Source: a virus. Taken from it: a DNA stretch of 41,192 nt. Shown in pieces: positions 1-41,192 of the stretch (its first letter is position 1; each line of letters begins with the position of its first letter). The stretch is taken from the IMG/VR virus record IMGVR_UViG_3300022821_000008, positions 1 through 41,192 of that record, one strand, 5' to 3'. The notes beneath the pieces were generated by a model, which saw only the letters and a program-made list of their open reading frames with translations, had not been told where the DNA came from and searched no databases. A program made the position numbers and the translations under genes.

Positions 1-127
1 GTATTCTAAAATTAATTGTCCGTCTCCGAAAGAGGGGGTTACCCCTTCGGATATTGTGCACCGGACTGGTGGCAGTAGGCGCTTGTCTCTTGCTTTGTAG
101 TGTACACCACAGGTGGTTGTATAGACA
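1..127. repeat. Terminal direct repeat, left copy
   Basis: These 127 bases are identical to 41066-41192. An exact repeat of this length at both contig ends is what an assembler leaves when it closes a circle with a 127-base k-mer, so the molecule is best read as a circle of about 41,065 bp. A real short terminal repeat is possible, but the P22-type terminase argues for headful packaging of permuted DNA. The segment contains a hairpin at 27-51 (CCGAA / TTCGG enclosing GGGG / CCCC), one CAGTAGGCGCTTG repeat and one copy of the 18-bp palindrome. Confidence 0.95.
95..112. promoter_or_regulatory. 18-bp palindrome box 1 (16/18)
   Basis: TTGTAGTGTACACCACAG, a 16/18 match to the consensus TTGTAGTGTACACTACAA found through the left half of the genome. 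It lies in the non-coding region, and the sequence recurs at 41160-41177 through the terminal repeat. Function unknown; operator-like. Confidence 0.6.
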
Positions 128-142
128 GGTACGTACATGTAT

Positions 143-182
143 AGGTGACAGTATTGTAGTGCACACTACAATACTGTCACCT
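143..182. promoter_or_regulatory. Extended 40-bp perfect dyad containing palindrome box 2
   Basis: Two 19-bp arms are exact inverted complements around a 2-base centre. The core at 154-171, TTGTAGTGCACACTACAA, matches the genome-wide 18-bp box. This is the longest perfect dyad in the window. It could form a cruciform or RNA hairpin, or bind a dimeric or tetrameric protein. With box 1 only about 60 bp away, it may be the primary control site of the family. Confidence 0.8.
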
Positions 183-219
183 GATCCACTTGTATAGACA
201 ACCATAGACAGGACTGTAC

Positions 220-320
220 TTGCAATGTCCATGCCAACCTACCACTATGCAATGATCATGCCAATAGACAATTATGTATAACCTCAGTATAATTGGCATG
301 ATACTTGCCGGACATTGTAA
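220..320. other. Nested two-stem structure, possible structured RNA or origin element
   Basis: An outer stem pairs 220-230 with 310-320 (11 bp, one G-U). Inside it, 255-265 (ATCATGCCAAT) pairs perfectly with 292-302 (ATTGGCATGAT). The result is a long stem of about 100 nt on either strand. No promoter is obvious next to it. It may be a small RNA, a primer-type RNA or a DNA cruciform; none of these is established. Confidence 0.4.
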
Positions 321-371
321 TATGTCCCAAGACCGTTGGTACTGTAGGCGCTTGCCCGTTGAGGTTTTCAA

Positions 372-393
372 CGTGGAACATAATTGTTCCACG
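372..393. promoter_or_regulatory. Perfect dyad CGTGGAACA-TAAT-TGTTCCACG
   Basis: Two 9-bp perfect arms flank a 4-base centre in non-coding DNA, the usual geometry of a dimeric repressor operator or a small hairpin. No T-run follows, so it is not a canonical terminator. Confidence 0.5.
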
Positions 394-900
394 ATCTTGT
401 ATGCGGTTTAATGGTACGTGTTAGGTGCGTACGTGTGTAAGTTAGGTGTATTGGTACGTTGTATCATGGTTAATACGTACGTGTCTTATTCGTGTATTTC
501 GATAATAGTGGAAATAAAGAAAATTAGTTGTAATGTTGTAGGTTGGTATGATACTTGCTTAGGCTTGTAATGGTTGTAATGGTTTAATACAGGTCACGTA
601 ATGTGATAAATAAACACCTATTAATATGGCATATAATTGTAACTATTTATTAAAATAGAAGTAACCTATTGAAATTATTCACTATTCAGGGCAAGCGTAT
701 CACTTGTATCATTTACGTATCACCTTGTCAAAACACGTAAACCCGGTGACAGTAGGCGCTTCAAAAGTCATCATTTTTTTTGAACTTTTCTTCAAAAAAG
801 TCAACCTCTTTTTTTTCCAAAACAGAAAATACGAACACAGATCAACCGTTCACAGTCTGTACACCACTATCCATGCACCTCTTACCCGTATCATTTCATT

Positions 901-924
901 TTCACATAGTGTTACATATGTGAA
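901..924. promoter_or_regulatory. Operator-like dyad TTCACATA-N8-TATGTGAA, copy A
   Basis: Perfect 8-bp arms are separated by 8 bp. A related site (17/20 identity over the 20 bases from CATAGTG to TGTGAA) lies at 1040-1059. Two similar sites upstream of the first early promoter suggest binding by a dimeric regulator. Confidence 0.5.
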
Positions 925-971
925 GGATTCGCTTTTAAACCCTTGTTATAACTATACAATTCTAAAAACGC

Positions 972-1004
972 GCGTATCAGGTAAAACTTTACCTAGTGAT
1001 ACGC
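972..1004. promoter_or_regulatory. Imperfect hairpin built on two CGTATCA motifs
   Basis: GCGTATCAGGTAAA (972-985) pairs with TTTACCT plus GATACGC (988-994 and 998-1004), with a 3-base bulge (AGT) and a 2-base centre. The outer arms are CGTATCA motifs in opposite orientation, so this is a paired version of the iteron. A short T-run (1006-1010) follows, so weak termination on the + strand cannot be excluded. Confidence 0.45.
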
Positions 1005-1039
1005 CTTTTTCAACTGCCTGTAATCACTATACTTTTTAA

Positions 1040-1059
1040 CATAGTGTGTCATTTGTGAA
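1040..1059. promoter_or_regulatory. Operator-like site, copy B
   Basis: Copy of the 901-924 element: CATAGTGTGTCATTTGTGAA here against CATAGTGTTACATATGTGAA at 905-924, 17 of 20 identical. The dyad is less perfect than in copy A. Confidence 0.4.
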
Positions 1060-1210
1060 ATGCGAAAGTGACTACAAAACCCCTATTACAGCAAAATCAA
1101 TTTCTATGCCAACGTATCAAAAAACTAAAAATGGTACGAATTTAGTACCCGTATTTTTGACGTGTACGTAGCACTCTTATACCCTATTATATAGAGCGCT
1201 CCCAAAATAG

Positions 1211-1228
1211 CTGTAAAGCACACTACAA
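1211..1228. promoter_or_regulatory. 18-bp palindrome box 3 (degenerate, 14/18)
   Basis: CTGTAAAGCACACTACAA matches the box consensus at 14 of 18 positions, with an intact right half. It lies about 30 bp upstream of the first early promoter, a sensible place for a regulator site. Confidence 0.4.
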
Positions 1229-1258
1229 ACATTTATTATTATTTATTTTTAAAAACGC

Positions 1259-1287
1259 TTGACAAGTTGCACACGTCCTGATATCAA
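1259..1287 (+). promoter_or_regulatory. Early sigma70-type promoter
   Basis: TTGACA at 1259-1264, 17-bp spacer, TATCAA at 1282-1287. It stands directly upstream of the first early gene (start 1335) and is the only good promoter before the 1335-5166 gene run, which it probably drives with host RNA polymerase. Confidence 0.7.
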
Positions 1288-1334
1288 AGGACATGGCGTT
1301 TTTAATAAACACTAACCCAAATAGGAGACACACC

Positions 1335-1568
1335 ATGACAACTTCAAATGACATTATCAAAATGAGTATCATTTCAAACATCCAACAACTTGAACTATCC
1401 CTGGAACACATTAACCCGGCAAGCTTTGACAGTCTATGGAAAACAGATTATGAAACTCTTACTATTATTAGAGACAAGGCGATAGTCAACTATAACACTA
1501 TGTTAGAGGAGCGCAAGTTTGCCGCGGATATGATCTATAACCAACAGATAACCAACAAGGGCGCGTAA
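1335..1568 (+). CDS. Small early protein, unknown function
   Basis: First gene of the early unit, 77 residues. I chose the ATG at 1335 over an in-frame one at 1293 because AGGAGA sits just upstream of 1335 and because 1293 lies almost on the promoter. The protein is predicted largely helical (for example LEERKFAADMIYN near the C-terminus), with no membrane segment and no motif I recognise. The stop lies inside a short GC hairpin (1559-1576, GGGCGC / GCGCCC) that separates it from the ATPase gene and may act on mRNA stability. First-position early genes in phages often encode host-takeover proteins, but nothing here shows that. Confidence 0.65.
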   Translation: MTTSNDIIKMSIISNIQQLELSLEHINPASFDSLWKTDYETLTIIRDKAIVNYNTMLEERKFAADMIYNQQITNKGA

Positions 1569-1605
1569 CAGCGCCCACACCTTATTATAATAGGAGACAA
1601 ACACC

Positions 1606-2865
1606 ATGACACCTAAACAAAGCAAATATCTTTGGGCATTCGAGATTCGCAATTCTCAATCACGTCCTATTAATTGGATGAAACAGTACCTTGACACCAA
1701 TCAAGCTAGCTCCATTATTGCAGAATGCGAAAAATGGGAAAGTGACAAAACCTTTGACCAAACAGAAAGGACTCAATCTTGTTTGAAATCCTACAATCCT
1801 TATTTCAAATTCAATGATCTTACACCAAAAACCATAACTGATACTGTTATTGAAACTAAAGAAGTAGTCAAAGAGATTGTAGTAGAGAGGGAAATTATCA
1901 AAACCATAACCTTAACACAAGATATGAGCTTAGATGACGTCATCCCTGCAATCCTGCCCCTAGTCAAAGGAGCAACACACCTACAAGACCTATTCGATGC
2001 CAAGCAACCAATACTCCAAGACTCTAAAACAAGCAAAGACTATTATAAACCTGAGAATTTCGATACTATTTTGGCAGCGGTCAAAAACCCAAAAATACAC
2101 GTACTTTTAAAAGGTCCGGCGGGATCAGGCAAAAGTCTGATGGGCAGAGAATTATCTAAGCACCTTAAACTTGATTTTTTTTGCATGTCGTGTTCAGGCG
2201 GCATGAGATACGCTCATATTTTTGGAGGTGACCGGATGTTTATTGACAAGGTTTCCGGCAAGACTATCACAGAATTTGAATTAAGCAATCTCATGCAAGC
2301 AATTCAGAAACCTTGCTTAATCCTGATGGATGAGCTATTTACCTTAGATGGTGATCTGCTTATGGGTCTCAATGGCCTATTCGAGGTCAACACAGGGCAA
2401 ATTGAAACTAAGGGAGGTCTTGTAACTATTCACCCTGAATGCCTTGTTATGGCAGCAACTAACACAGACGGTCGTAATAATGACCGGAACCACGTAGGCG
2501 CAAAACGCGTTGACGGCAGCTCCCTAGACCGCTTTGCAACTTTTCATCATGATTATTCAAAATCAGTAGAGCGTAACATTTTAAACAAACTGCCCAAACT
2601 GCATAGGCAGGATGTCTCTCAATGGCTTATTAAATTACGTAAAGAGTTAAAGTTAGCCAATATAACTTTTGATCCGTCAACGCGGAGACTGCAAACCTGT
2701 GTTGAGCAGATTAATGGTAGCGGTTTACCTTGTGACGTCGCTTTTAATTCCGCTTTTTTAGGTCAGTTATCCCCGATGGAGTTAAAAAAAATAGGGTTAG
2801 ATAAGCTTGAAACAACACGTAAAAATGAACCTGTTATAGATGATACGACAAAGGAGCTATTTTAA
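1606..2865 (+). CDS. MoxR-type AAA+ ATPase
   Basis: A 419-residue AAA+ ATPase of the MoxR / AAA_5 type. Residues 1-160 form a variable N-terminal part with a charged, probably coiled segment (80-100, rich in VKE and VVE). The ATPase core has Walker A GPAGSGKS (170-177), Walker B LILMDE (238-243), a sensor-1-like MAATNT (282-287) and an arginine-finger-like LDRF (307-310). The RBS is ATAGGAGAC. MoxR ATPases typically remodel a target through a vWA-domain partner, and the next gene may be that partner. The third gene is an SprT-like protease. A phage role in host or virion protein remodelling is inference. Confidence in the ATPase family is high; the substrate is unknown. Confidence 0.85.
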   Translation: MTPKQSKYLWAFEIRNSQSRPINWMKQYLDTNQASSIIAECEKWESDKTFDQTERTQSCLKSYNPYFKFNDLTPKTITDTVIETKEVVKEIVVEREIIKTITLTQDMSLDDVIPAILPLVKGATHLQDLFDAKQPILQDSKTSKDYYKPENFDTILAAVKNPKIHVLLKGPAGSGKSLMGRELSKHLKLDFFCMSCSGGMRYAHIFGGDRMFIDKVSGKTITEFELSNLMQAIQKPCLILMDELFTLDGDLLMGLNGLFEVNTGQIETKGGLVTIHPECLVMAATNTDGRNNDRNHVGAKRVDGSSLDRFATFHHDYSKSVERNILNKLPKLHRQDVSQWLIKLRKELKLANITFDPSTRRLQTCVEQINGSGLPCDVAFNSAFLGQLSPMELKKIGLDKLETTRKNEPVIDDTTKELF

Positions 2866-2866
2866 C

Positions 2867-3625
2867 ATGTTGACACCTGCGGAGTACCTCAAAAACGGCA
2901 TGCCAAAAAATCATGAACTATGGCTGAATGGTCTTGATCTTGTAGCGCATTGCTTACAAAAAGATCATACGCAAACGTTTTTCAAAGACGACCGACCACT
3001 GCCCAAATATTATGATGAATGGTCGGATGCAATGCAAAAACACGTTAAATCAGATGATAACTTTGACGATATTTATTCTAACGCCTATGCACCTAAAAAA
3101 GCCTGGATACCCTACCATGACGATAGCGGCTCATTTGACACGAGCGCCTTTATCTCAGGTGAAGATTTTTGTTTTGAAGATGAAAAGCGCGTAAAACAAC
3201 AGCAAGATTCTATGAGTATCCTTATTGACTGCGGCGTACCGTACGGCGAACGCGGCGATACTTATATGATAGCAAGGCATCAGGCGGTGTATAACCTTAT
3301 TGCACAATGTGATAGCGACGACAGGCCATGTCAAATTATAGGCGTCCAAAATAACCGGATTGACGAGCTATCAACGCCATTAAAGCTCTTCATCATGGTC
3401 AAAGATTATACTGACAGTATTTTTCCTGCAATATGGGGAGCGCTCAAGAATAACCAAACTACTAACAGTTTTTGTAACGTAACGATGGATTATTTTATCG
3501 GCACTAAATCTTACGGCAATGGCGCGCCTACAGTTTTAGAAGACGCAGAGCAATATTTTCCAGCCAATGAAGAGATCATTATTTTTGGCACACGGATCAA
3601 GGCAAATAATGCAGTATATAAATAG
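2867..3625 (+). CDS. Possible vWA-like partner of the MoxR ATPase
   Basis: 252 residues. The start at 2867 follows the ATPase stop by one base, with AAAGGAG about ten bases upstream; an earlier in-frame ATG at 2840 would overlap the ATPase. I do not recognise the family with certainty. The middle and C-terminal part alternates strand and helix: SMSILIDCGVPYGERGDTY, then a helix, then CQIIGVQNN, LKLFIMVKDY and EEIIIFGT. This resembles a von Willebrand A fold in which the DxSxS metal site is replaced by DCGVPYGERG. A vWA protein next to a MoxR ATPase is the expected pairing. Without a structure prediction this stays a hypothesis. The N-terminal 90 residues are acidic and unassigned. Confidence 0.5.
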   Translation: MLTPAEYLKNGMPKNHELWLNGLDLVAHCLQKDHTQTFFKDDRPLPKYYDEWSDAMQKHVKSDDNFDDIYSNAYAPKKAWIPYHDDSGSFDTSAFISGEDFCFEDEKRVKQQQDSMSILIDCGVPYGERGDTYMIARHQAVYNLIAQCDSDDRPCQIIGVQNNRIDELSTPLKLFIMVKDYTDSIFPAIWGALKNNQTTNSFCNVTMDYFIGTKSYGNGAPTVLEDAEQYFPANEEIIIFGTRIKANNAVYK

Positions 3626-3635
3626 GAGACTAAAA

Positions 3636-4340
3636 ATGACAAATGAACTGGAACCTACAATTGCAATGGCCGAAAGCTTACAGGAAATTACAAACTACTT
3701 AGACGCCTATCTTTTTGAAGGCAAATTACCGCCATGTTTTATCACATTGACGCGGAATAATAAAGTTTTAGGTGGCTATCATGCACAAGATCAATGGGAG
3801 AATGCCGACGGTGTCATTGTGCCTGAGATTGGTATTAATTCAAACTTACTTGCGCAAGATGATCCACTTGTAATCTACAACGTATTGATCCATGAACTAT
3901 TGCACCTCGAACTATCTCACGCTGGTACTGGTGGACGTACAGGCTACCATAATAAACAATTTGAGCAAAGATGTAATGAGTTAGGCTTATCTATAACGTG
4001 TAACGACAAAGATGCAGTAGAAGGGCAGCAAACCGGACAATCAATTGAAACTAACATCATAGAAGGCGGCCCGGCTGAAATGGCAATCGCAAAAATACCT
4101 ACCGACCTAGCCTACTATGCAAAACATGTGCTTGACATTGATGAAAGTGGCAAGCCTGAAAAAACCATACCTGGAGAACCTGGAGAACCTACTCCGCAAA
4201 AACCAGTAGAACAACCCGCACCAAAAAGCGCGGGCAAGAGGACAAAATACCAATGCCCTGTTTGCGGCTTGTCTATGTGGGGCAAGGCTGGTGCGTTTAT
4301 CTTATGTGGTACGTGTACACAAACTATGATCGAAAGTTAA
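3636..4340 (+). CDS. SprT-like zinc metalloprotease with C-terminal zinc ribbon
   Basis: 234 residues from the ATG at 3636, preceded by ATAGGAGAC; the longer in-frame start at 3567 lies inside the previous gene. The N-terminal domain (1-115) has the zinc-protease signature HELLH (86-90) and a likely third ligand His105 in GYHNKQFE, as in SprT/Spartan proteins. A Pro/Gly/Glu-rich linker (PGEPGEP) leads to a C-terminal zinc ribbon with CPVCG and CGTC pairs. Spartan proteases remove DNA-protein crosslinks; phage members are poorly understood. Its place after a MoxR-type ATPase and a putative vWA protein suggests a shared proteolysis or remodelling task, which is inference. Confidence 0.8.
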   Translation: MTNELEPTIAMAESLQEITNYLDAYLFEGKLPPCFITLTRNNKVLGGYHAQDQWENADGVIVPEIGINSNLLAQDDPLVIYNVLIHELLHLELSHAGTGGRTGYHNKQFEQRCNELGLSITCNDKDAVEGQQTGQSIETNIIEGGPAEMAIAKIPTDLAYYAKHVLDIDESGKPEKTIPGEPGEPTPQKPVEQPAPKSAGKRTKYQCPVCGLSMWGKAGAFILCGTCTQTMIES

Positions 4341-4352
4341 TATAACGCGGTT

Positions 4353-4370
4353 TTGTGGTGTACACTACAA
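4353..4370. promoter_or_regulatory. 18-bp palindrome box 4 (17/18)
   Basis: TTGTGGTGTACACTACAA, one mismatch to consensus, in the 64-bp gap between the protease stop and the 4405 gene. GCGG and CCGC flank it and extend the inverted repeat imperfectly, so a transcript would fold into a hairpin just upstream of the RBS. Confidence 0.75.
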
Positions 4371-4404
4371 TGCCGCAAACTATTTAAAATAGGAGAGTAT
4401 CGTC

Positions 4405-4623
4405 ATGAAAAATGCAGTAGGTTATGAGAGCGCAACCGAGACTATTAGACAGTTACCACAGAACTATTGTCTAGCTTTTAACTTAGGGACACGCTGGTAT
4501 CTTGACTTTGATTTAGCTTGCGACCCTGCAATTGCTATTAGAGTAGTACGCGCATATTTGAGCTATGACGTTGCGTATGGTACTGGCGCCAATTTTATAA
4601 ACGCCATTAATGATTTAAAATAG
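4405..4623 (+). CDS. Small protein, unknown function
   Basis: 72 residues with RBS TAGGAGAG. Aromatic-rich middle (LGTRWYLDFDLACDP) followed by a helix (AIRVVRAYLSYD); soluble, no recognised motif. It lies just downstream of a palindrome box and 13 bases before the next gene, so the two are probably co-translated. Confidence 0.65.
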   Translation: MKNAVGYESATETIRQLPQNYCLAFNLGTRWYLDFDLACDPAIAIRVVRAYLSYDVAYGTGANFINAINDLK

Positions 4624-4636
4624 GAGATCAAATAGC

Positions 4637-4873
4637 ATGGAAAAACTGACACTGACAGTAACCAATCAAATTGATAATCAAGGTCTTATTTTCTTATCAA
4701 CTCCATGCGGCAATATGTTTTCCCTTATGGAAATGCCATACGACAAAAAATCACATTGGGGTTTTTCCATTATCAAACAGGGGCAGCATAAGGTCATTGA
4801 TCCTCAAAAGATAGGCGCTATCATATTTCCAGCCAATTCAGACGGCATAGTACAGGAGTTTTTAACATCATAA
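4637..4873 (+). CDS. Small protein, unknown function
   Basis: 78 residues, RBS TAGGAG. Predicted mostly beta (KLTLTVTNQ, GLIFLSTPCG, IGAIIFPANSDG), with no membrane segment and no family recognised. The gap to the next gene contains CCTTATTATATAGGAGG, a leader also seen before 1606 (CCTTATTATAATAGGAG). Confidence 0.65.
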   Translation: MEKLTLTVTNQIDNQGLIFLSTPCGNMFSLMEMPYDKKSHWGFSIIKQGQHKVIDPQKIGAIIFPANSDGIVQEFLTS

Positions 4874-4903
4874 CTTATACCTTATTATATAGGAGGTCAA
4901 ATC

Positions 4904-5026
4904 ATGCCTGATTTAATAATAATATTTATAGTCTTAATACTCTGCTTATTTTTCGGGGTAGGTGCATTGGGCGCGTTAATAGCTGTTATATTAACTTATA
5001 TAGCCTTAAACTTAATCTTTAACTGA
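4904..5026 (+). CDS. Tiny membrane protein, 40 aa
   Basis: 40 residues, nearly all hydrophobic: IIIFIVLILCLFFGVGALG, then ALIAVILTYIALNLIF, that is one long or two short membrane helices. The leader ATAGGAGGTCAAATCATG is repeated exactly before the next gene, so the pair may have arisen by duplication of a small expression cassette. A role in the host inner membrane (for example exclusion or depolarisation) is possible, with no direct evidence. Confidence 0.6.
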   Translation: MPDLIIIFIVLILCLFFGVGALGALIAVILTYIALNLIFN

Positions 5027-5040
5027 TAGGAGGTCAAATC

Positions 5041-5166
5041 ATGGGAACTGCAATAATAGCTTTATTATGTATTATTCTAAGCTTTATAATCGGTGGCGTT
5101 GTAGGTTACGACATTAAGGTTGATGAACTAAAAGACCGTCAACAAAATAAAAATAAAAAGACTTGA
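5041..5166 (+). CDS. Tiny membrane protein, 41 aa
   Basis: 41 residues: an N-terminal membrane helix (TAIIALLCIILSFIIGG) with glycines, then a charged lysine-rich tail (DELKDRQQNKNKK) probably facing the cytoplasm. It shares its 18-base leader with the upstream gene. Its stop codon lies within the -35 hexamer of the next promoter, so it ends the first early unit. Function unknown. Confidence 0.6.
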   Translation: MGTAIIALLCIILSFIIGGVVGYDIKVDELKDRQQNKNKKT

Positions 5167-5191
5167 CAAAGCTTTCAGCATTTAGTAGATT
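5163..5191 (+). promoter_or_regulatory. Sigma70-type promoter of the 5247 gene
   Basis: TTGACA at 5163-5168, 17-bp spacer, TAGATT at 5186-5191. The -35 box overlaps the stop codon of the upstream gene. It precedes a single gene closed by a strong terminator. Confidence 0.75.
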
Positions 5192-5246
5192 AACGACATT
5201 GGGCATTTAGCCCACATTTATAAACCCTAATTAGGAGAATCAAAAA

Positions 5247-5771
5247 ATGGCAGTAGTAAAGACACCCGAACAGCTCGAAAGAGACAAAGCAAGAAATGCA
5301 GCTATTAGAAATGCAAAAGAAGCCATAAGAGGGTTCTTTTCAAATGGCTTGTTCGCAAAGCTCCCTTTACCCATTCAGGATGCCCTTAAGACTCTTGCAC
5401 CAATGGCACGACAGGCGACAAGTACCATCGCCATTGAAATTGCCGGACTCTTTAAAGACAAGCAAGTTTTGTCTGAACTGGACATTTTTAAGGCTTTGAA
5501 AGTTGGGCCAAATGAAATGAAGGCAAAAGTTAACCATTGCCTGAAACTGGCAGCCCCTGAAGATCGGATGTGGATTTCTTATGATCCTGACAAGTGTACA
5601 TGGACTTTTCTTGGAGTAGGCGCAAAGATGCCGGAGGGCTTCTCTACTGAGAGCCTTATTCCGTCCATCGCGGCCCATGCTGCAAACCCTGCCTTTCTGA
5701 CACTGTCCGTTACTCAGTTGATTGATGCTGCCAAAGCTGCACCAGTTGTTGAGGAAGGTGACGACGAATAG
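5247..5771 (+). CDS. Abundant early protein with possible winged-helix fold
   Basis: 174 residues, RBS TTAGGAGA. It forms its own transcription unit, with a consensus-like promoter upstream and a 14-bp-stem terminator downstream; its base composition looks more GC-rich than neighbouring genes. Residues 1-75 are helical and basic. Residues 75-125 read as helix, helix, then a beta hairpin (VLSELDIFKAL, MKAKVNHCLKL, WISYDP / TWTFLGVG), the order seen in winged-helix DNA-binding domains. It ends in an acidic tail (EEGDDE). I do not recognise the family. A nucleoid-like or regulatory DNA-binding protein is a reasonable guess, and it is one candidate binder of the 18-bp palindromes. Confidence 0.65.
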   Translation: MAVVKTPEQLERDKARNAAIRNAKEAIRGFFSNGLFAKLPLPIQDALKTLAPMARQATSTIAIEIAGLFKDKQVLSELDIFKALKVGPNEMKAKVNHCLKLAAPEDRMWISYDPDKCTWTFLGVGAKMPEGFSTESLIPSIAAHAANPAFLTLSVTQLIDAAKAAPVVEEGDDE

Positions 5772-5795
5772 TCAACCGCTAATAACCCTTTAAAC

Positions 5796-5827
5796 AAAGC
5801 CCCTTGGAAAATTCCAAGGGGCTTTTT
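5796..5827 (+). terminator. Strong intrinsic terminator
   Basis: AAAGCCCCTTGGAA (5796-5809) pairs perfectly with 5812-5825 around a 2-base centre, and the 3' arm runs into TTTTT. Flanking A and T runs make it potentially bidirectional. It closes the 5247 gene unit. Confidence 0.92.
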
Positions 5828-5914
5828 CTATTTAAGACCCTGCCATTTTTCCCTATGCAATGACATTGACCCCTGTCCAAAACCCTCGCAAACAGCAAAT
5901 TTCAGCTCCAAAAT

Positions 5915-5939
5915 CCTGTTCAAGACTCCCATGAACAGG
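5915..5939. promoter_or_regulatory. Dyad CCTGTTCA-N9-TGAACAGG upstream of the replication promoter
   Basis: Perfect 8-bp arms about 40 bp upstream of the 5976 promoter. No U-run follows, so an operator or activator site is more likely than a terminator. The rest of the gap 5828-6080 holds only this dyad and the promoter. Confidence 0.45.
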
Positions 5940-5975
5940 GGCTTTCAAGAGCACCCAATAAATAAAAAATAATCC

Positions 5976-6004
5976 TTGACAGGCGATATTTAAAAGTATA
6001 TATT
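5976..6004 (+). promoter_or_regulatory. Sigma70-type promoter of the replication unit
   Basis: TTGACA at 5976-5981, 17-bp spacer, TATATT at 5999-6004. It is preceded by AATAATCC, the same octamer that precedes the late promoter on the - strand. It probably drives 6081-17118. Confidence 0.8.
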
Positions 6005-6080
6005 TAAAGGTATGAAAGACATGAAAGATTACAGCATATATAGGTATAGACTTTTGACAACATAACAAGGAGCAATAAAC

Positions 6081-6227
6081 ATGAACTTTATACTTGAAAC
6101 ATTATCGGAGTGTGGTGAAGCTTACGTATGGTTAATTATTTGCGCTATTGCCTACGTTATTGGTATATGTAAGAGTAGCGCCGCAACAAATTGTAGTGTG
6201 CACTACAAAAATGGGAGGATTAGGTAA
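6081..6227 (+). CDS. Tiny membrane protein, 48 aa
   Basis: 48 residues with RBS CAAGGAGC. A membrane helix (AYVWLIICAIAYVIGIC) is followed by a short polar tail. The stop TAA overlaps the ligase ATG (TAATG), which suggests translational coupling. A palindrome box (6191-6208) lies inside its 3' end and encodes CSVHYK there. No recognised family. Confidence 0.55.
   Translation: MNFILETLSECGEAYVWLIICAIAYVIGICKSSAATNCSVHYKNGRIR
6191..6208. promoter_or_regulatory. 18-bp palindrome box 5 (17/18)
   Basis: TTGTAGTGTGCACTACAA, one mismatch to consensus, within the end of the 48-residue ORF and about 20 bp before the ligase start. It would form a hairpin close to the ligase RBS. Confidence 0.75.
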
Positions 6228-7477: not shown

Positions 7478-7650
7478 TGACACTTTTAAATTTTATAAAC
7501 AGTTTATTCCAAGTCACGTTAGAACTGGACGGAAATATTGACAAGCTTAATACTGAAACTGTACAGTACCAATACGCGTTAGAGAAGTGCGCTGAAAGGA
7601 GCATGAGAGTAAGCACCACGATTAAACATGTCATGGCGCATTGGTTATGA
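7477..7650 (+). CDS. Small helical protein between ligase and helicase
   Basis: 57 residues from the ATG that overlaps the ligase stop (TGATGA). Helical and probably coiled (NFINSLFQVTLELDGNIDKL). Its stop overlaps the helicase start (ATGA), so it sits tightly coupled between two replication genes. No function recognised; perhaps an accessory subunit. Confidence 0.55.
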   Translation: MTLLNFINSLFQVTLELDGNIDKLNTETVQYQYALEKCAERSMRVSTTIKHVMAHWL

Positions 7651-9263
7651 TCCCCGAACCGTTTCCTCATCAAACAACAGCACTGCTTAAACTACGTAGC
7701 CTACCCTATGCTGCATTATTCAGTGATATGGGTACGGGGAAATCACGTATAGCAATAGACTGGTTCATCTATAAGAATCAGCACGAAGGGTCAGACAGAA
7801 TCGTTGTCATTGCTCCATCAGTAGTAGGGCGACAATGGATTGACGAACAATTGCCGATACATTGTGGTGTACACTACAAAGCACACGCATATGAGTCTAA
7901 GTACACGAAAAAGGCAATCAGAAAACTTGACAATTTTATCATGTCAGCTAAGTACGGCAAAGGCATCCACATACTTTGTATTCATTATGAAGTTTTCGCA
8001 GCAAAGAAAGGGCGTGAGATAGTTAACCAGTTTTTGTCCACCAGTAAGAATACACCTATCTTTATAGTGGACGAGTCAAGTCGTATAAAGAATCCTGATG
8101 CTAAGAGCGTTAAAAATATCACAGCGTTAAGGGCAGCTAAAGCCTACCCAAACTCTTTCCGTATGATAATGAGTGGTACACCCGCAAGCAAGAGTCCGGT
8201 AGATTTGTGGTCACAATTTGATTTCCTTACAAACAATTATTTCAATTGCGGTTATGTTGTATTTAAATCTATACACTCAGTCAGAGCATATAAAAAGATC
8301 AAGGTTAAAGGGCGATTGGTAGCCATTGAGACGACACTTGATAGAGACACCTATGACAAGATAAAGAAGATCATAACAAAGAACACCAAGAACGGCAAAC
8401 TTCACGATGCAGTACCGGCAATGGTTCAAAAGAGATTTGGTATAACAAGCGAGGATTTTTGGTTTGTGTTAAACTCTCCAAGATTTCAGCGATTCAAGAA
8501 CATGGACAAACTACAGGAGAAAATAGCACCTGTAACGTATGCGGTTAAGTTAGACGATTGCGTAAAAATACCTCCTAAGATATACCAGAAAATATCTTGT
8601 GGTCTAAACTCAGAACAGAAAAGGTTAATCAAAGACCTTATTAAATATAGCGCCACAGTATACGACGATGAAATGTTGACAGTTGACATTAAAGCCTTAA
8701 TGGGGTTAAGAGTGTTGCAAATATGCGGAGGAAATTTTAGCCACCTTACAGATTTAGAGGGTAAGTTTGGAACAACACCAATTAAAGGCGTTAACAGTAA
8801 GATACAGTACCTTATGAACGACATTCCAGAGATAGGATCACAGCAGTTTCTTATTTGCGCTGTTTATACGCCGGAGATACTTGCGATACATAAACAAGTT
8901 AGTAAGATAACTGATATCGGCATGTTATATGGTAAGACACCACAGAATGAGCGCGATAGAGTGCTAACAGATTTTAAAGCTGGACACTTACAGGGCATTG
9001 TAATGAATCCCTTTGTCGGCGGTTATGGTTTGAACCTACAGATGGCAAGGGTTCAGTATTGGTACAGCAGGAACTACAGGACAGAGGTTAGACTTCAAGC
9101 AGAGGATAGGCTCCACAGGATAGGTACAGTTAAAAGCCCCATCTATAAAGACCTATTGAGTGATATTAGTTTTGAGCGCGATGTGTTAGAGGTATTACAA
9201 GAAGGTAAAGATGTTAATTCAGTCTTTGTTAATAAGGCAGTGAACGAGATATTTAAAGTGTAG
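7647..9263 (+). CDS. SNF2-family DEAD/DEAH helicase
   Basis: 538 residues from the ATG at 7647, which overlaps the previous stop (ATGA); an in-frame TTG two codons earlier is less likely. Superfamily 2 motifs: Walker A DMGTGKS (residues 27-33), motif II VDESS (141-145), motif III MSGTPASK, and the C-terminal SNF2 signature GYGLNLQMA followed by QAEDRLHRIG. It resembles phage SNF2-type helicases placed near DNA polymerase and SSB genes and probably supports replication or recombination. A palindrome box lies inside the coding sequence at residues 71-77, and the stop codon lies in another. Confidence 0.88.
   Translation: MIPEPFPHQTTALLKLRSLPYAALFSDMGTGKSRIAIDWFIYKNQHEGSDRIVVIAPSVVGRQWIDEQLPIHCGVHYKAHAYESKYTKKAIRKLDNFIMSAKYGKGIHILCIHYEVFAAKKGREIVNQFLSTSKNTPIFIVDESSRIKNPDAKSVKNITALRAAKAYPNSFRMIMSGTPASKSPVDLWSQFDFLTNNYFNCGYVVFKSIHSVRAYKKIKVKGRLVAIETTLDRDTYDKIKKIITKNTKNGKLHDAVPAMVQKRFGITSEDFWFVLNSPRFQRFKNMDKLQEKIAPVTYAVKLDDCVKIPPKIYQKISCGLNSEQKRLIKDLIKYSATVYDDEMLTVDIKALMGLRVLQICGGNFSHLTDLEGKFGTTPIKGVNSKIQYLMNDIPEIGSQQFLICAVYTPEILAIHKQVSKITDIGMLYGKTPQNERDRVLTDFKAGHLQGIVMNPFVGGYGLNLQMARVQYWYSRNYRTEVRLQAEDRLHRIGTVKSPIYKDLLSDISFERDVLEVLQEGKDVNSVFVNKAVNEIFKV
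7862..7879. promoter_or_regulatory. 18-bp palindrome box 6 (17/18), inside the helicase gene
   Basis: TTGTGGTGTACACTACAA, identical to the box at 4353-4370, here in coding sequence (codons for CGVHYK). A coding copy argues that the sequence is kept for a DNA or RNA role rather than as a plain intercistronic terminator. Confidence 0.75.
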
Positions 9264-9275
9264 TGTACACTACAA
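9258..9275. promoter_or_regulatory. 18-bp palindrome box 7 (17/18)
   Basis: GTGTAGTGTACACTACAA. It contains the helicase stop codon and runs straight into the AAGGAG of the next gene, so RNA folding would place a hairpin against the Shine-Dalgarno. Confidence 0.8.
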
Positions 9276-9287
9276 AGGAGACTAAGT

Positions 9288-9869
9288 ATGACAACGGACA
9301 TCGGTTTGAGGCATCTACAAGATGCAGCAGAAAAAGAGGACGGAGTACAACAGACGGACAGCTTATTGAAGTTAACCGCATTAGCAGCCCAATGGATAGA
9401 GCGTAAGGCAGAGTATATTCTCTTGGAACACAGAGCAGCAGAAGCAAAGAAGCTGTTTAATAAGACGTCACAAGAGGACATACCAAACGCTATGATGGAA
9501 GTTGGCCTGAGTGAGTTGAAGCTTACAGACGGACAGAAGATAAGCTTTAAAGAGGACGTGTCCTGTTCCATTAAGGATTATAACAAGTTGGATGAATTTC
9601 TAACTGAGCGCGGTGAGGACGGTATGATGAAGATCACGCTGGAAGTTGGCAAAGTTCCTAAGAGCATCTTGCGTATGATCCTCAAAGACCTTACTGAGAA
9701 GTACGACATCAGCGCGATGCCAAAACAGTTCGTGCATCCCGCGACTATAGCAGCGTACATAAGGCGACTATGCGGAATTGACGGTAAGACAGTTGCCGAA
9801 GTTGCAGTAGCAGATATTGACGAGACGATGTTGAGTATCTACAGATACTACAAAACCACTATTAAATAA
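9288..9869 (+). CDS. Phage replication-region protein, unknown function
   Basis: 193 residues, RBS AAGGAG. A helical N-terminal half (ERKAEYILLEHRAAEAKKLF) leads into KLTDGQKISFKEDVSCSI and then a C-terminal part with VHPATIAAYIRRLC. This layout recalls a recurrent phage family found next to helicases and ssDNA-binding proteins, loosely similar to Gp157-type proteins, but I cannot name it securely. It is probably soluble and cytoplasmic. Its position between helicase and SSB-like genes suggests a recombination or replication accessory role. Confidence 0.6.
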   Translation: MTTDIGLRHLQDAAEKEDGVQQTDSLLKLTALAAQWIERKAEYILLEHRAAEAKKLFNKTSQEDIPNAMMEVGLSELKLTDGQKISFKEDVSCSIKDYNKLDEFLTERGEDGMMKITLEVGKVPKSILRMILKDLTEKYDISAMPKQFVHPATIAAYIRRLCGIDGKTVAEVAVADIDETMLSIYRYYKTTIK

Positions 9870-9880
9870 GGAGACACAAA

Positions 9881-10654
9881 ATGGCTAAGACTAAAAGCGC
9901 AACACCCGATGAAATGAACAAAATGTTTCAAGATTACGAAGGCGACAAGGGCGGATTTGAGGACATGAGCGGAGACACTCAATCTGTACCATTTATTAGA
10001 TTGTTACAGGAGCTTTCTCCACAGGTACGTAAAACCAAACCTGAATTTATGGAAGATGCGAAAGTTGGTATGTTAATTAATACCATTAATAACCATCTGT
10101 ACAAAACCCCGTTAAGGTTCGTGGTTGGGAAGTTTGAACGTTACTATATTGAATGGCGGCCTAATCGCGGTGGATTTGCTGGCGTACACGCTATCGAATC
10201 CATTGAAAAACGTATCGGCGACGATCTTATTGCAGATGACGGCTGGAAGATAGTTCACCCAGGCACAGGTAATGAGTTCATGGACACCTACGTCTATTAC
10301 GTTATCATGCCCGATCATTTAGAGGACGGCGTTTGCATCTTTAGCCTGTCTTCCAGTCAGTTGAAGGAGGCTAAGAAGCTTAACCGCAACTTGCGCTCAA
10401 TTATGATCCCTGGAACAACACAAAGGGCGCTACCGTTCTTTATGATCTGGAACTACGAAACAATTGCGATGAAAAATGATAAGGGAGAGTGGGTTGGGCC
10501 AAAGTTTACTCTAGAGAGTTTTGTTACACAGGAGCAATTGGCTCACGTAACAGAGACACGGCTTGAATTGCCAAACAAAACCATTGACTATAAGCTGTTA
10601 GAGCAGGATGCTGGTAAACCCTCAACGGCAGCCGGAGACGATGTCCCGTATTAG
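9881..10654 (+). CDS. Putative single-stranded DNA-binding protein
   Basis: 257 residues, RBS AAGGAGAC. It resembles a phage family usually placed next to replication helicases: an N-terminal VPFIRLLQELSPQV segment, then a beta-rich core with aromatic residues (FERYYIEWRPNRGGF) and a LPFFMIWNYET segment. The C-terminus ends in GDDVPY, like the acidic D-D-I-P-F tip by which bacterial SSB recruits partner proteins. That tip supports an SSB role, though the core is not the standard OB-fold sequence of bacterial SSB. Its end overlaps the start chosen for the next gene. Confidence 0.6.
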   Translation: MAKTKSATPDEMNKMFQDYEGDKGGFEDMSGDTQSVPFIRLLQELSPQVRKTKPEFMEDAKVGMLINTINNHLYKTPLRFVVGKFERYYIEWRPNRGGFAGVHAIESIEKRIGDDLIADDGWKIVHPGTGNEFMDTYVYYVIMPDHLEDGVCIFSLSSSQLKEAKKLNRNLRSIMIPGTTQRALPFFMIWNYETIAMKNDKGEWVGPKFTLESFVTQEQLAHVTETRLELPNKTIDYKLLEQDAGKPSTAAGDDVPY

Positions 10655-11060
10655 CGAAGACGCTTATGAAGTGATGGGTTTGCGTGTGGCTTGTGCAGAA
10701 GTGCAGGTCACACGCCCTTTTTCGCTTGAGAAGCAGGTCTACGTATATCTAAAACGTGTGTTTAATAAAGCGGGTTGGAAGTTTATACGTGTAGATACCC
10801 AAGGTCAACAAGGTTTTCCAGATTGCTTATGCCTAAGAGGTTCTAAGTACGTTTTAATAGAAGCTAAGATGCTTAAAACCAAAAAGCTGACAAATGTACT
10901 TGACAATATGGTATTTCAACCTGGGCAAATCCCCTTCATGCTACAAGCACTTATCAAAAAACAAAGTTACTTGCTTATCGTTGCTAAAGATAACAAGCTA
11001 CTAATAATAGGAGATAACTACTATGTTCGGTCAATGTCTTATTACCCCTACGATACTTGA
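10641..11060 (+). CDS. VRR-NUC-like PD-(D/E)XK nuclease
   Basis: 139 residues from ATG 10641, with GGAG just upstream; an in-frame ATG at 10608 lies further inside the SSB-like gene. The nuclease signature is GFPDCL followed after about ten residues by LIEAK (PD...ExK), preceded by KFIRVDTQGQQ, typical of VRR-NUC / Holliday-junction-resolvase-like enzymes of phages. It probably cuts branched or flapped replication intermediates. It overlaps both neighbours (14 bases with the SSB-like gene, 38 with the next nuclease). Confidence 0.78.
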   Translation: MSRISEDAYEVMGLRVACAEVQVTRPFSLEKQVYVYLKRVFNKAGWKFIRVDTQGQQGFPDCLCLRGSKYVLIEAKMLKTKKLTNVLDNMVFQPGQIPFMLQALIKKQSYLLIVAKDNKLLIIGDNYYVRSMSYYPYDT

Positions 11061-11679
11061 TTCATATGAGTTCGCTAAAAGCGCACCACCATCTTGGAAA
11101 GTTAGAGCAGAGGAAGGTTTTTTAGCAAAGTTAAGGCGTGAGAAGGCTGAGTATCCTGCGTGGGTCGCTAAAGGACAGGCTTTTGAGGATACCGTTGTGC
11201 GAGTTTGTAATGCACACCACCATAATCGTATGAAAACTGATCCAATTAAAAAAGGCTCGGAACTTTTCAAAGAAGTAGCTGCAAAGTGTATAGGCGGAAA
11301 ATTCCAAGAAAAGTTATCGAAGCAGCTTGACATAGACGGAGAAAAGGTCTTCTTATTCGGGTACTGCGATGTCACTTTTCCGACTCTTACAATTGATTTA
11401 AAGACAACACTCAACTATAAAGGCCCAAGTAAGTATCTTAATGGGCATCAGCATTTGTTCTACTCTTTTATGCGCAATGTTCCAAAGTTCCAGTATATCG
11501 TTGTTCAATGGTCAAGCGAAGATGCGATAACAATTCAAGCTGTCCATACAATTGATTATACAGCTCCAGAAATAGGTATACTTGAAGCTGATATACGTAT
11601 CAAGATAGCGAACTTCTTTGACTACCTGAGAACAAACAATCTTTGGCAGGACTACTACTCAATTTTCTCTAAAAATTAG
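11023..11679 (+). CDS. RecB-like PD-(D/E)XK nuclease
   Basis: 218 residues, RBS ATAGGAGA. Signature: FEDTVVRVC helix, then GYCDVTFPTLTIDLKTT (D...DxK) and GHQHLFYSFM (a Q-containing helix), as in RecB/Cas4-type exonuclease domains. It likely acts in phage recombination or host DNA degradation. Two different PD-(D/E)XK nucleases side by side suggest separate structural specificities. No helicase domain is fused; the UvrD-like helicase is encoded two genes downstream. Confidence 0.72.
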   Translation: MFGQCLITPTILDSYEFAKSAPPSWKVRAEEGFLAKLRREKAEYPAWVAKGQAFEDTVVRVCNAHHHNRMKTDPIKKGSELFKEVAAKCIGGKFQEKLSKQLDIDGEKVFLFGYCDVTFPTLTIDLKTTLNYKGPSKYLNGHQHLFYSFMRNVPKFQYIVVQWSSEDAITIQAVHTIDYTAPEIGILEADIRIKIANFFDYLRTNNLWQDYYSIFSKN

Positions 11680-11687
11680 GTAACAAT

Positions 11688-13310
11688 ATGAAGCAATTGC
11701 GCCAATTTTCAAACGACTTTGCTACGTTGTTTGCAGGCAGCAAAGATTGTTACGGTATACACGTTCCTGAAAAGACTGTCAAAGATGGAGAGAAGGCTAA
11801 AGGCAAATCATTTACAAAAACAGAGCCGTTAGCAGAACTTACCTATTTAAGGCACTTACATGGCGAAGTGAGCTTAGGAGTTGTACCGATAAATAGGGAT
11901 GGCGACATATCTTTTGCAGCTATAGACGTTGACGAGTATCCGTTAAACCCTGTTAAATACCTAACCATGTTACGCAAGGCTAAACTTCCTTTGGTGGGTT
12001 GCAGGAGCAAGAGCGGTGGGTTACACCTCTATTGTTTCTTCAATCCACCTGTAAAGGCAGCTACAGCTATACCCTTAATGGACAACATTAGGGAGTTACT
12101 TGGTTTACCGGCAGATACAGAGATATTTCCTAAACAAACAGCATTAGCAGAAGGTGGAGCGGGTAACTGGATAAACTTACCATACTACGCTGCGGAAAAG
12201 ACTCAACGGTACGCCTACAGTAGCGACGGTAAAGAGTTGCCGTTATCGGTATTCCTTACCAATACAATGTCGTTGCGTACCACACCTAAAGCGTTAAAGA
12301 GCGCATTAGATGCAGCACCATTGGCAGAAGCTCCACCATGCCTACAAAAATTGTTCTTAGCAGGTGGAGCAGATGAAGGACACTTCACTAAGTATATGTT
12401 CAATTGCGGCATATACCTAAAAGCAAGGTTCGGTGAAGCGTTTGCAGAGAACTTACATTTATTAAACAATAACGCGTTAGAGCCGTTAGACTATACTACA
12501 TTAGACACTACTGTTATAGCAGCGTTAAATAAGAAAGACTACCATTACGCTTGCAGCGATCCGTTGTTAAAAGAACACTGCGTAAAAGATGTTTGTGGTA
12601 CGCGTAAATACGGAGTAGGTGGTCAGTTTGTTAGCGATTTTGAGTTTGGTCAGTTAAAAAGATTCAAGGGTGACGACGACGATGAGTATTACACATGGGA
12701 AGTTAACAGTATAGCATTTGTACTTTACGGTATAAAAGACTTAATGGGACAAGACAGGTTCAGAGCCTTATGCGGTAGTAAGTTGAACAAAATTCCAAAT
12801 AAGCTTAAAGAAATGGTTTGGATTAAAATAATAAATAATGCGTTAGCCAATGTTATAGAGGTTGACGATGGAATAGGCGCAGGAATGTCGGATAGAGCGC
12901 ACTGGCAGGATAAGGTTGGTGAGTTTCTATCCACACGAAGAGCTATAAGGAGAGAGCAACTATTAGAGGGGCTTGTATATTTAAGGGGCGATAAGCTTTA
13001 CTTCAAAACTTCTATACTACAAGAACATCTACTGCAATGTCAGACGTTACGAGGAGTAACAAAGATACAGCACAGGAGATTGCTAATGGACTACGGGGTG
13101 CAGCGTGGATCTATACGTATTAATCACAAACCTATGAACTTTAATTTTGTTGAGCTTAAATTCCAACACAAGAAAGGGCGGTTGATAGATATTGATAGAA
13201 ACCCTGAACGTGACAAGTTAGATATTAAGAAGAAGGCACTTAAAAAAGCTAAGGAAGAAGGTAATTATAAGGAAGTGGCTATGGACTTTAAAGAAGAGGA
13301 GAAGTTTTGA
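11688..13310 (+). CDS. Archaeo-eukaryotic-type primase (TOTE-like)
   Basis: 540 residues. The N-terminal domain carries the AEP motifs: hhhDhD as FAAIDVDEY (Asp80, Asp82), SGGLHLYCFF with the catalytic His113, and a conserved GNWINLPYY (159-167). This matches the TOTE-conflict type of phage AEP primase. A middle helical region is followed by a cysteine cluster (Cys289, Cys298, Cys303 before RKYGVGG) that could bind zinc or Fe-S. The C-terminal 230 residues are unassigned and end in a basic/acidic tail. It synthesises primers for the family A polymerase. The stop overlaps the next ATG (TGATGA). Confidence 0.8.
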   Translation: MKQLRQFSNDFATLFAGSKDCYGIHVPEKTVKDGEKAKGKSFTKTEPLAELTYLRHLHGEVSLGVVPINRDGDISFAAIDVDEYPLNPVKYLTMLRKAKLPLVGCRSKSGGLHLYCFFNPPVKAATAIPLMDNIRELLGLPADTEIFPKQTALAEGGAGNWINLPYYAAEKTQRYAYSSDGKELPLSVFLTNTMSLRTTPKALKSALDAAPLAEAPPCLQKLFLAGGADEGHFTKYMFNCGIYLKARFGEAFAENLHLLNNNALEPLDYTTLDTTVIAALNKKDYHYACSDPLLKEHCVKDVCGTRKYGVGGQFVSDFEFGQLKRFKGDDDDEYYTWEVNSIAFVLYGIKDLMGQDRFRALCGSKLNKIPNKLKEMVWIKIINNALANVIEVDDGIGAGMSDRAHWQDKVGEFLSTRRAIRREQLLEGLVYLRGDKLYFKTSILQEHLLQCQTLRGVTKIQHRRLLMDYGVQRGSIRINHKPMNFNFVELKFQHKKGRLIDIDRNPERDKLDIKKKALKKAKEEGNYKEVAMDFKEEEKF

Positions 13311-14695
13311 TGAATAAGCGTACGATATATGGGCCTCCAGGTACGGGCAAGACTACGCACTTAATGTCCCTTATCATGGAAGACCTGAAAACGACACCAC
13401 CTAACAGAATTGCGTTTGTATCTTACACTAAGCAAGGCACGTATGAAGGAGCTAAGAGAGCGCACAAAGAGTTCAACCTCAAAGCTACTGACACACCGTT
13501 CTTCCGCACTATACATTCACTATGTTTTAGGGAACTTGGTATGCGCAAGTACGATATGCTACAACGTAAACACTATAAAATGTTATCTGAGAAGATAGGC
13601 ATAACTTTTACCGGCTACTACACGCAGGACTTCACAAGCCCGAATGACGCGTACCTTCATGCACTAAGCATGGAGCGCCATAACCCTGAACTATCAGCGC
13701 AAATATCTAAGCATATGAACGCTAAAAAGTATGACTATATAAAGCTGAACTACGCAGCTATTAAAAAGCAGTTGGGTATAAAGGACTTTGATGACTTATT
13801 AGCTGACTACTTAGAGTTCTGCAAACCATTTGACGTTGATACAGCTTACATTGACGAAGCTCAAGACCTTACACCATTACAATGGAAGGTTGTTAAGCAC
13901 ATGTTCAAGAACGCGAAGAAGATAGTTATAGCCGGAGACGATGACCAGAGCGTGTATGAATGGTCTGGTGCGGACACTAAACAGTTTCTAAGTTTCTCTA
14001 AGGAAAGCACAACATTGCGTAAGAGTTATAGACTTCCAGAGCAGGTATGCGAGCTTGCTGCCAACATATCGAAGGACATAGCCTTTCGTAAAAAGAAGGA
14101 CTTTATATCCAACGGCGAAGAAGGTGTTATATCAAGAGCAGCTAACTTACTCAACGCTGATATAGAAGGCGGAGAATTAATCTTAGCGCGTACTAACTTC
14201 AAATTGCGGGAACTTTGCGACGAATTGGAAATGATGGGCGTTTATTATATAAGGAAGGGTTTTGCTTGTGTTGAACCCACTACACTTAAAGCAATCAACA
14301 CATACAAGCAGTTTTCGGCTGGCGAATGTCCAATGCAAGAGGTTAAGAAGTTTGGTAATATATTTAAAGAGGTTTCACTTTCAAAACCTTGGCAAGACGT
14401 TATAGACAAACCAAAAGCTAAAATTGCCTTTTATGAAAGGTTATTTAGACCTGGCAGGGGCGGTTTAGAACGAGAACCCGTCCTATTAGAGACTTTTCAT
14501 AGCTCAAAAGGCACAGAAAACGATCATGTCATCGTATCCCCTGATCTTTCATTTAGGGTCAGTAATGAGTTTGAAAAGCAAAGGGATGCCGAGCTAAGAT
14601 GCCTCTATGTCGGGATGACCAGAACAAAAAACCGACTGACTTTGCTTGCTCCAAGTTGGAAAAGATATTATCCAGCAAAATATTTTAAATTTTAA
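13310..14695 (+). CDS. UvrD/Rep-like superfamily 1 helicase
   Basis: 461 residues from the ATG overlapping the primase stop, with GAGGAG upstream. SF1 motifs in order: Walker A GPPGTGKT (8-15), motif II YIDEAQDLTPLQW, motif III AGDDDQSVYEWSGA, motif IV LRKSYRLP, motif V FHSSKGTENDHVIV, motif VI YVGMTRTKNRLTL. It is shorter than UvrD (about 720 residues) and resembles compact phage or Dda-like helicases. It is the likely motor of the phage replisome with the SNF2 protein, since no DnaB-type hexameric helicase is visible. Confidence 0.9.
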   Translation: MNKRTIYGPPGTGKTTHLMSLIMEDLKTTPPNRIAFVSYTKQGTYEGAKRAHKEFNLKATDTPFFRTIHSLCFRELGMRKYDMLQRKHYKMLSEKIGITFTGYYTQDFTSPNDAYLHALSMERHNPELSAQISKHMNAKKYDYIKLNYAAIKKQLGIKDFDDLLADYLEFCKPFDVDTAYIDEAQDLTPLQWKVVKHMFKNAKKIVIAGDDDQSVYEWSGADTKQFLSFSKESTTLRKSYRLPEQVCELAANISKDIAFRKKKDFISNGEEGVISRAANLLNADIEGGELILARTNFKLRELCDELEMMGVYYIRKGFACVEPTTLKAINTYKQFSAGECPMQEVKKFGNIFKEVSLSKPWQDVIDKPKAKIAFYERLFRPGRGGLEREPVLLETFHSSKGTENDHVIVSPDLSFRVSNEFEKQRDAELRCLYVGMTRTKNRLTLLAPSWKRYYPAKYFKF

Positions 14696-14713
14696 TTGTA
14701 GTGTACACTACAA
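14696..14713. promoter_or_regulatory. 18-bp palindrome box 8 (perfect consensus)
   Basis: TTGTAGTGTACACTACAA, a perfect 18-bp palindrome directly after the helicase stop; it abuts the AAAGGAG of the next gene. In RNA it could fold as a 7-bp stem with a GUAC loop beside the ribosome site. Confidence 0.85.
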
Positions 14714-41065: not shown

Positions 41066-41192
41066 GTATTCTAAAATTAATTGTCCGTCTCCGAAAGAGG
41101 GGGTTACCCCTTCGGATATTGTGCACCGGACTGGTGGCAGTAGGCGCTTGTCTCTTGCTTTGTAGTGTACACCACAGGTGGTTGTATAGACA
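41066..41192. repeat. Terminal direct repeat, right copy
   Basis: Exact copy of 1-127; see the left copy. On the circle these are one sequence. Confidence 0.95.

Follow-up and report, generated by a model that had tools for sequence, protein, structure and literature searches.

We analyzed a viral DNA of 41,192 nucleotides (IMG/VR record IMGVR_UViG_3300022821_000008, positions 1 to 41,192; the whole stretch is called the window here), in which 18-bp palindromes are dispersed through the early half. These palindromes are very probably operators of a SprT-like protein that the phage itself encodes at positions 3636 to 4340, and which would bind them as a dimer and restrain its own gene and other early genes. 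The sequences establish the sites, their conservation, a two-way association between gene and site, the agreement of sites within an element, and co-variation between a protein residue and an operator base; from these patterns we infer physical binding, dimerization, and repression.

The 18-mer TTGTAGTGTACACTACAA was searched across the whole window with up to 3 mismatches, using dinucleotide shuffles as background. Eight matches were found where 0.03 were expected, and no shuffle reached eight. The eight copies listed in a first-pass annotation, made from the letters of the window alone, were all confirmed, with the matches given below. A symmetric weight matrix built from the sites and run over the whole window scored true copies at 16.7 to 31.6 and all other positions at 9.2 or less, with no site in the late half, in keeping with the early-only distribution that the annotation had described. 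In total, the early region contains seven strong and two weak copies and the late unit none. Bases 1 to 127 recur exactly at 41066 to 41192. Identical ends of this kind mark the record as a complete assembly, which is probably circular, and the length of the repeat looks like the assembly overlap of a circular genome. The match at 41160 to 41177 is site 95 read again through this terminal repeat and not a late copy. The operators are as follows, where G001 is a related viral contig (IMGVR_UViG_3300024259_000105).

95 to 112, no strand: operator TTGTAGTGTACACCACAG, 16 of 18 bases matching, second instance at 41160 to 41177 through the 127-bp terminal repeat
143 to 182, no strand: 40-base dyad (TTGTAGTGCACACTACAA) around the operator at 154 to 171 (17 of 18), with 38 of 40 bases paired
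1211 to 1228, no strand: weak operator CTGTAAAGCACACTACAA, 14 of 18, upstream of the first early gene, matrix score 16.7
4353 to 4370, no strand: operator TTGTGGTGTACACTACAA, 17 of 18, 13 bp past the stop codon of the SprT-like gene and before the gene at 4405, same position in G001
6191 to 6208, no strand: operator TTGTAGTGTGCACTACAA, 17 of 18, before the DNA ligase gene, G001 counterpart at 5328
7862 to 7879, no strand: operator TTGTGGTGTACACTACAA, 17 of 18, within the SNF2-helicase frame, 18/18 identical in G001
9258 to 9275, no strand: operator GTGTAGTGTACACTACAA, 17 of 18, abutting the Shine-Dalgarno sequence of the Pam3 gp33-like gene (9288), same place in G001
11205 to 11222, no strand: weak operator TTGTAATGCACACCACCA, within the gene at 11023 to 11679, 17/18 identical in G001
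14696 to 14713, no strand: operator TTGTAGTGTACACTACAA, 18 of 18, abutting the Shine-Dalgarno sequence of the gene upstream of DNA polymerase

The dyad at 143 to 182 had been called perfect; it is present, but its two central bases are unpaired. Each of its strands has promoter-like hexamers, GTGACA/TACAAT, which face one another, and the end of the palindrome forms the -10 element, as judged by consensus match only. This was the sole place at which a promoter scan of the early region was informative. At 1211 to 1228, just one half of the palindrome is intact.

Conservation was assessed in G001, a 75%-identical contig of 31.8 kb that is syntenic with the early region of the window (about 65 to 80% nucleotide identity there; 84% for the DNA polymerase protein); a nucleotide search of the annotated phage collection yielded no phage relatives of the window. 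G001 has seven palindromes. The early block holds six of them, and the seventh, with one mismatch, lies roughly 0.9 kb past it at 17891 to 17908 (reversed), in frame in an M15-peptidase-like late gene. Five occupy exactly the aligned position of a window site, a sixth lies in the matching intergenic region before ligase, and the counterpart of site 14696 is directly before polA. The retained sites include two within reading frames. At 7862 to 7879, 7/7 codons are identical, against 53% of synonymous codons elsewhere (chance 0.012), and at 11205 to 11222, 6/6 synonymous codons are retained, against about half elsewhere (chance 0.009). Because the in-frame copies keep every synonymous codon, selection acts on these sites at the DNA level. 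The two genomes also differ by rearrangement: all four shared intergenic sites (4353, 6191, 9258, and 14696) adjoin a gene that was gained, lost, or swapped, compared with about 3 of 11 other junctions. For example, the gene between site 14696 and polA is missing from G001, which has an extra gene between the site and ligase. The palindromes may serve as recombination boundaries. It is highly unlikely, however, that they are primarily hotspots for recombination or insertion, marking mosaic boundaries, and not regulatory sites, since two in-gene copies are conserved without rearrangement and neither the linkage to SprT nor the residue-base code described below would be explained.

The candidate binder and its features are encoded as follows.

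3636 to 4340, + strand: SprT-like (Spartan-family) zinc-metallopeptidase-fold protein of 234 amino acids, candidate palindrome binder (PF10263, E 1.7e-6)
3891 to 3905, + strand: HELLH (residues 86 to 90), the HExxH zinc/catalytic motif, conserved in homologues
4038 to 4040, + strand: codon of Gln135 in the T-G-Q loop, proposed base-reading residue from its co-variation with operator position 4
4254 to 4316, + strand: C-terminal zinc ribbon with conserved cysteines (C207, C210, C224, and C227)

The PF10263 match exceeds the gathering score, and the protein has both the HExxH motif and the third zinc ligand of the family; H86, E87, H90, and H105 are invariant among 52 homologues. The start at 3636 is backed by the G001 homologue, which begins MTNELEP. 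A sequence search of the PDB gave no confident match, with Spartan appearing only at E 0.8, and an AlphaFold model from 7 sequences was too poor for a fold match. With a deeper alignment, the AlphaFold2 model (mean predicted local distance difference test score, pLDDT, 83.5) matched Spartan (6mdx/6mdw) at probability 0.99; in it the T-G-X loop is well predicted and runs into the strand at 137 to 141. The invariance of the HExxH motif hints at a role for proteolysis as well, perhaps in induction. The scan of the early proteins yielded no helix-turn-helix (HTH) repressor, consistent with the earlier remark that no CI-like repressor is visible. The nearest strong palindrome is just downstream of the SprT-like gene, with only weak site 1211 and the pair at 95 and 154 upstream.

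The association of gene and palindrome was found from both directions. When TTGTRGTGYRCACYACAA alone was scanned against 85,000 prokaryote genomes, 36 loci matched, with several phyla represented. A tblastn search over all 36 located a SprT-like gene in 9, including Rhizobiaceae and an actinobacterial metagenome-assembled genome; for loci with the exact palindrome the figure was 7/15, and most of the SprT-like genes were within about 150 bp of the palindrome. In comparison, a query of this type found matches in just 10 of the 571 genomes sampled, and the gene was patchy in the Gammaproteobacteria and Bacteroidota samples. Perfect copies in non-coding DNA adjoin a SprT-like gene in Marinicella and relatives, Sphingobacterium, and Parapedobacter, and at gammaproteobacterial loci the palindrome separates the SprT-like gene from a divergent gene, which falls in a cluster with Tn3-type transposases. 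At a separate locus (L043, 7766 and 7812), a TetR gene of Pseudenterobacter timonensis has two upstream copies of TTGTAGTG..CA.TACAA; this may be an independent origin of the palindrome, serving a TetR regulator.

Starting instead from the protein, we found SprT-like genes on 2,612 of the 72,556 plasmid records searched (about 3.6%), and many of these have a palindrome of the shared 18-bp type, YTGKATTGYRCAATMCAR, in their upstream regions. The palindrome precedes the SprT-like gene or operon in V. cholerae, IncN, IncN2, IncU, IncX3, Pseudomonas, Acinetobacter, Plautia-symbiont, and Bacteroides plasmids, often 12 to 60 bp before the start codon; in IncX3 and two mobilizable plasmids, it stands at the start of the operon instead. 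Representative palindromes upstream of the SprT-like gene are as follows.

IncN: GTGTATTGCACAATACAT
IncN2: CTGTATTGCGCAATACAG
IncU: TTGGATTGTGCAATCCAA
V. cholerae plasmid: TTGGATTGTACGATCCAA
Bacteroides plasmid: TTGTAATGTACATTACAA

Of the 79 viral homologues, 25 carry such a dyad no more than 220 bp away, compared with a density of 0.044 per 450 bp elsewhere, although these 25 include a few that nearly duplicate each other or are AT-rich chance matches. No palindrome was found upstream of E. coli chromosomal yggI, whose loop differs. The palindrome thus lies beside the gene of its presumed regulator, upstream in most elements. Two elements showed other arrangements: a viral contig (L097, 5051 to 12172) holds seven copies of a different dyad, GCCAGCAAATTCGCTGGC, together with an E-type SprT-like gene, and the other element (L100, 1399 to 9334) has five or six dispersed TTGTAA-N6-TTACAA palindromes around a SprT-like gene whose operator lacks the usual GTAC-type center.

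Dispersal likewise recurs independently: the majority of elements hold several copies, and most plasmids have 2 to 5. Copies number five each in IncN, IncN2, and pConj58k, three each in Pseudomonas MPC6, Bacteroides, and IncU plasmids, and two in the V. cholerae plasmid, and three phages have three (L093), two (L112), and two (L126). A scan across elements that was not based on each element's own site found 80 sites in 1.77 Mb, compared with 11 in shuffles. Sites differed by a mean of 1.64 mismatches within an element and 5.00 between elements, a separation reached in 0 of 2,000 permutations. Because sites are alike within elements and unlike between them, a reader encoded by the element is needed. 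This bears on the possibility, raised in part by the first-pass annotation, that a host transcription factor such as NtcA binds the sites and that mobile elements borrowed its operator. The matches do span several phyla, and the outer bases fit GTA-N8-TAC, the NtcA pattern fitting GTAGTGTACACTAC. But the palindrome sequence tracks the element and not the host: enterobacterial plasmids differ from one another (GTGTATTGCACAATACAT versus GTGGATTGCACAATCCAT), yet each agrees internally, and in Sphingobacterium four copies lie on one 54.6-kb contig, with one weak 3-mismatch match elsewhere in the 4.4-Mb genome. In the NtcA box, GTA-N8-TAC, the A is fixed and the spacer is free, whereas here the inner 8 bp are nearly fixed and A5 is freely G. 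We therefore regard a host factor as improbable.

The alternative that another element-encoded protein binds, with SprT-like genes merely among its targets, was weighed in the same way. Candidates are the product of the phage gene at 5247, as proposed earlier, and plasmid StbA, ParB, or ArdK; stbA of IncN-type plasmids holds several copies of the palindrome, and ArdK adjoins the SprT-like gene in IncN. However, SprT-like is the only protein family present in all 24 palindrome-bearing elements, a result that holds by construction for elements chosen through SprT but not for those found through the palindrome, and the next real family occurs in 9. The 5247 product is present in G001, but no such family is common to the other palindrome-bearing elements. 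As a known counterpart, ArdK/CUP of IncN plasmids was rejected, since ArdK recognizes TTGACA direct repeats (PMC9723621). A different element-encoded binder is accordingly quite unlikely, all the more so as a residue of the SprT-like protein itself tracks the operator base.

This co-variation was detected by aligning 45 SprT-like proteins with their operators and ranking 205 alignment columns against operator position 4. The residue after the invariant Gly of the T/V-G-X loop (X; Q135 in the window) was E or D with 8/8 G4 operators and with 0/37 others, and ranked first of the 205 columns (Fisher p 4.6e-9; next column, 5e-5), values that ignore common descent. In half-site counts from a wider set, Q occurred with T in 62/68, E or D with G in 13/18, and R with C in 6/8. 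Pairing of Gln with adenine, Glu or Asp with cytosine, and Arg with guanine is textbook recognition, and the code matches it on the complementary strand. IncN (VGQ, T4) and pConj58k (VGE, G4), close together in the tree, form a near-minimal pair. In addition, G at position 4 was expected beforehand for two TGE plasmids whose operators had previously not been found (L079 and L080), and a scan blind to base 4 gave one site in each, both with G. Operator sequence thus co-varies with the candidate regulator. This also argues against the suggestion that the palindromes are RNA hairpins governing ribosome access or processing. Some sites do abut a Shine-Dalgarno sequence, and the sequence would allow a 7-bp stem closed by a 4-base loop, but half-sites vary independently, with one-arm changes tolerated (A5/C14 at 95 and 11205; T5/T14 in G001), and the would-be loop bases are nearly invariant in the 14 sites inspected, where a hairpin predicts compensatory arms and a free loop. 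An RNA role of this kind is barely credible.

Several observations weigh against assigning the sites to the SprT-like protein as simply as this. Since common descent inflates the simple p value of the residue-base association, tree-independent pairs (seven well-supported contrasts, of which 5.7 agree and 0 oppose) give a sign-test p of 0.03; for Glu/Asp contrasts alone, 3/3 agree, and three pairs cannot reach significance. Mixed half-sites occur in three elements (L102, L128, and L140). About two-thirds of viral homologues have no palindrome nearby, and many of these have Arg at X or lie within operons. The promoter scan of the early region gave 56 promoter-like matches versus 41.7 in shuffles, a modest excess. 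Finally, palindromes cluster in or at the plasmid stability gene stbA (IncN L052, 11950 to 12063; the equivalents in IncN2 and pConj58k; Pseudomonas MPC6, 39272), and the stbA-internal clusters in several plasmids are not explained by repression of SprT alone.

In the mechanism that we propose, the SprT-like protein, with its Spartan-type fold and C-terminal zinc ribbon, would sit on the palindrome as a symmetric dimer, and residue 135 of its T-G-X loop would read the base pair formed by positions 4 and 15. As the sites are found at translation starts or immediately ahead of them, within genes, or as the -10 of promoter-like sequences that face each other, binding would most likely repress or roadblock early transcription at several points and limit expression of the protein itself, promoter occlusion or a roadblock being the simplest action. 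Copies within genes may act as roadblocks in the manner of stoperators. Speculatively, the intact protease site might trigger release, for example by self-cleavage. The first-pass idea of a dispersed operator set with a stoperator-like layout is thereby upheld, whereas its proposed binders and its RNA hairpin are not, and it had missed the link to the SprT-like gene.

Some other features of these DNAs were noted. Positions 180 to 1290 of the window, about 1.1 kb without convincing genes, are rich in TACGTACG-like repeats with a hairpin at 372 to 393, possibly an origin or control region. At 11688 to 13310 is a replication gene with a TOTE-type archaeo-eukaryotic primase domain, adjoining Pam3 gp33/gp34-like proteins. 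In G001 (reversed, 13264 to 13777), partial duplications of 141 bp and 44 bp lie at the start of the UvrD-helicase gene. A 4.4-kb viral contig with one copy (G002) was rejected as a relative, having no gene in common with the window; its match is probably due to chance.

The closest parallels are the stoperators of cluster A mycobacteriophages of the L5 type, in which a short operator is likewise dispersed at gene boundaries and inside genes (PMC9283540, PMC6550527), a layout that implies control of elongation as well as initiation (PMC9283540, PMC6550527); the in-gene sites of the window would fit the halting of elongating RNA polymerase. The stoperator site lacks symmetry, and the immunity repressor that binds it is monomeric (PMC9283540). 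The window has multiple dispersed copies but no asymmetric 13-bp site with an L5-like HTH immunity repressor; its site is an 18-bp palindrome, the phage lacks a recognized repressor, and the candidate binder has a Spartan-type fold. The plasmid global regulators KorB and the KorA/ArdK family are also element-encoded autoregulators with operators dispersed over the element, but they are HTH proteins with other operators, unrelated to SprT (PMC9723621). The system would therefore represent dispersed-operator autoregulation that works like stoperators and Kor regulons and, differing in symmetry and protein family, belongs to neither. The mpr/mpR proteins of IncN, IncU RA3, and IncX3 plasmids share the SprT-like family and have palindromes upstream of the gene or operon; RA3 mpR has been described only as a putative zinc metallopeptidase of unassigned function (PMC7414963). 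The open-access literature searched contained no account of sequence-specific regulation by SprT-like proteins, or of an operator or DNA-reading role for mpr/mpR, and the reader looks like a new class. By its Spartan match, it shares the HExxH metallopeptidase fold of the SPRTN/Wss1 crosslink proteases and bacterial SprT/YggI. Those proteins are known to target DNA-crosslinked proteins irrespective of sequence.

With the pairing recurring in phages, conjugative plasmids, and Tn3-type transposons, the window phage very probably belongs to a broader family of autoregulatory modules that pair a SprT-like protein with a palindrome. A far more tentative proposal, which we consider possible though doubtful, is that mobile elements use their SprT-like proteins as a new class of sequence-specific transcription regulators, with a Spartan-type protease fold as the DNA reader and a one-residue code, and that the retained protease site makes self-cleavage and derepression responsive to DNA damage, single-stranded DNA, or DNA-protein crosslinks. 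Such a switch would resemble LexA/CI, have arisen independently, and be common to phages, conjugative resistance plasmids, and Tn3 transposons. If the SprT-like proteins are operator-binding regulators, a fold known for DNA-protein crosslink repair would read DNA sequence, a large set of "proteases" would need re-annotation, and regulons could be read directly from sequence. Among the plasmids with SprT-like genes are IncX3 and IncN plasmids carried by patient-derived enterobacteria, and the same pair of protein and palindrome in unrelated plasmids, transposons, and phages points to an unrecognized family of gene switches in mobile DNA.

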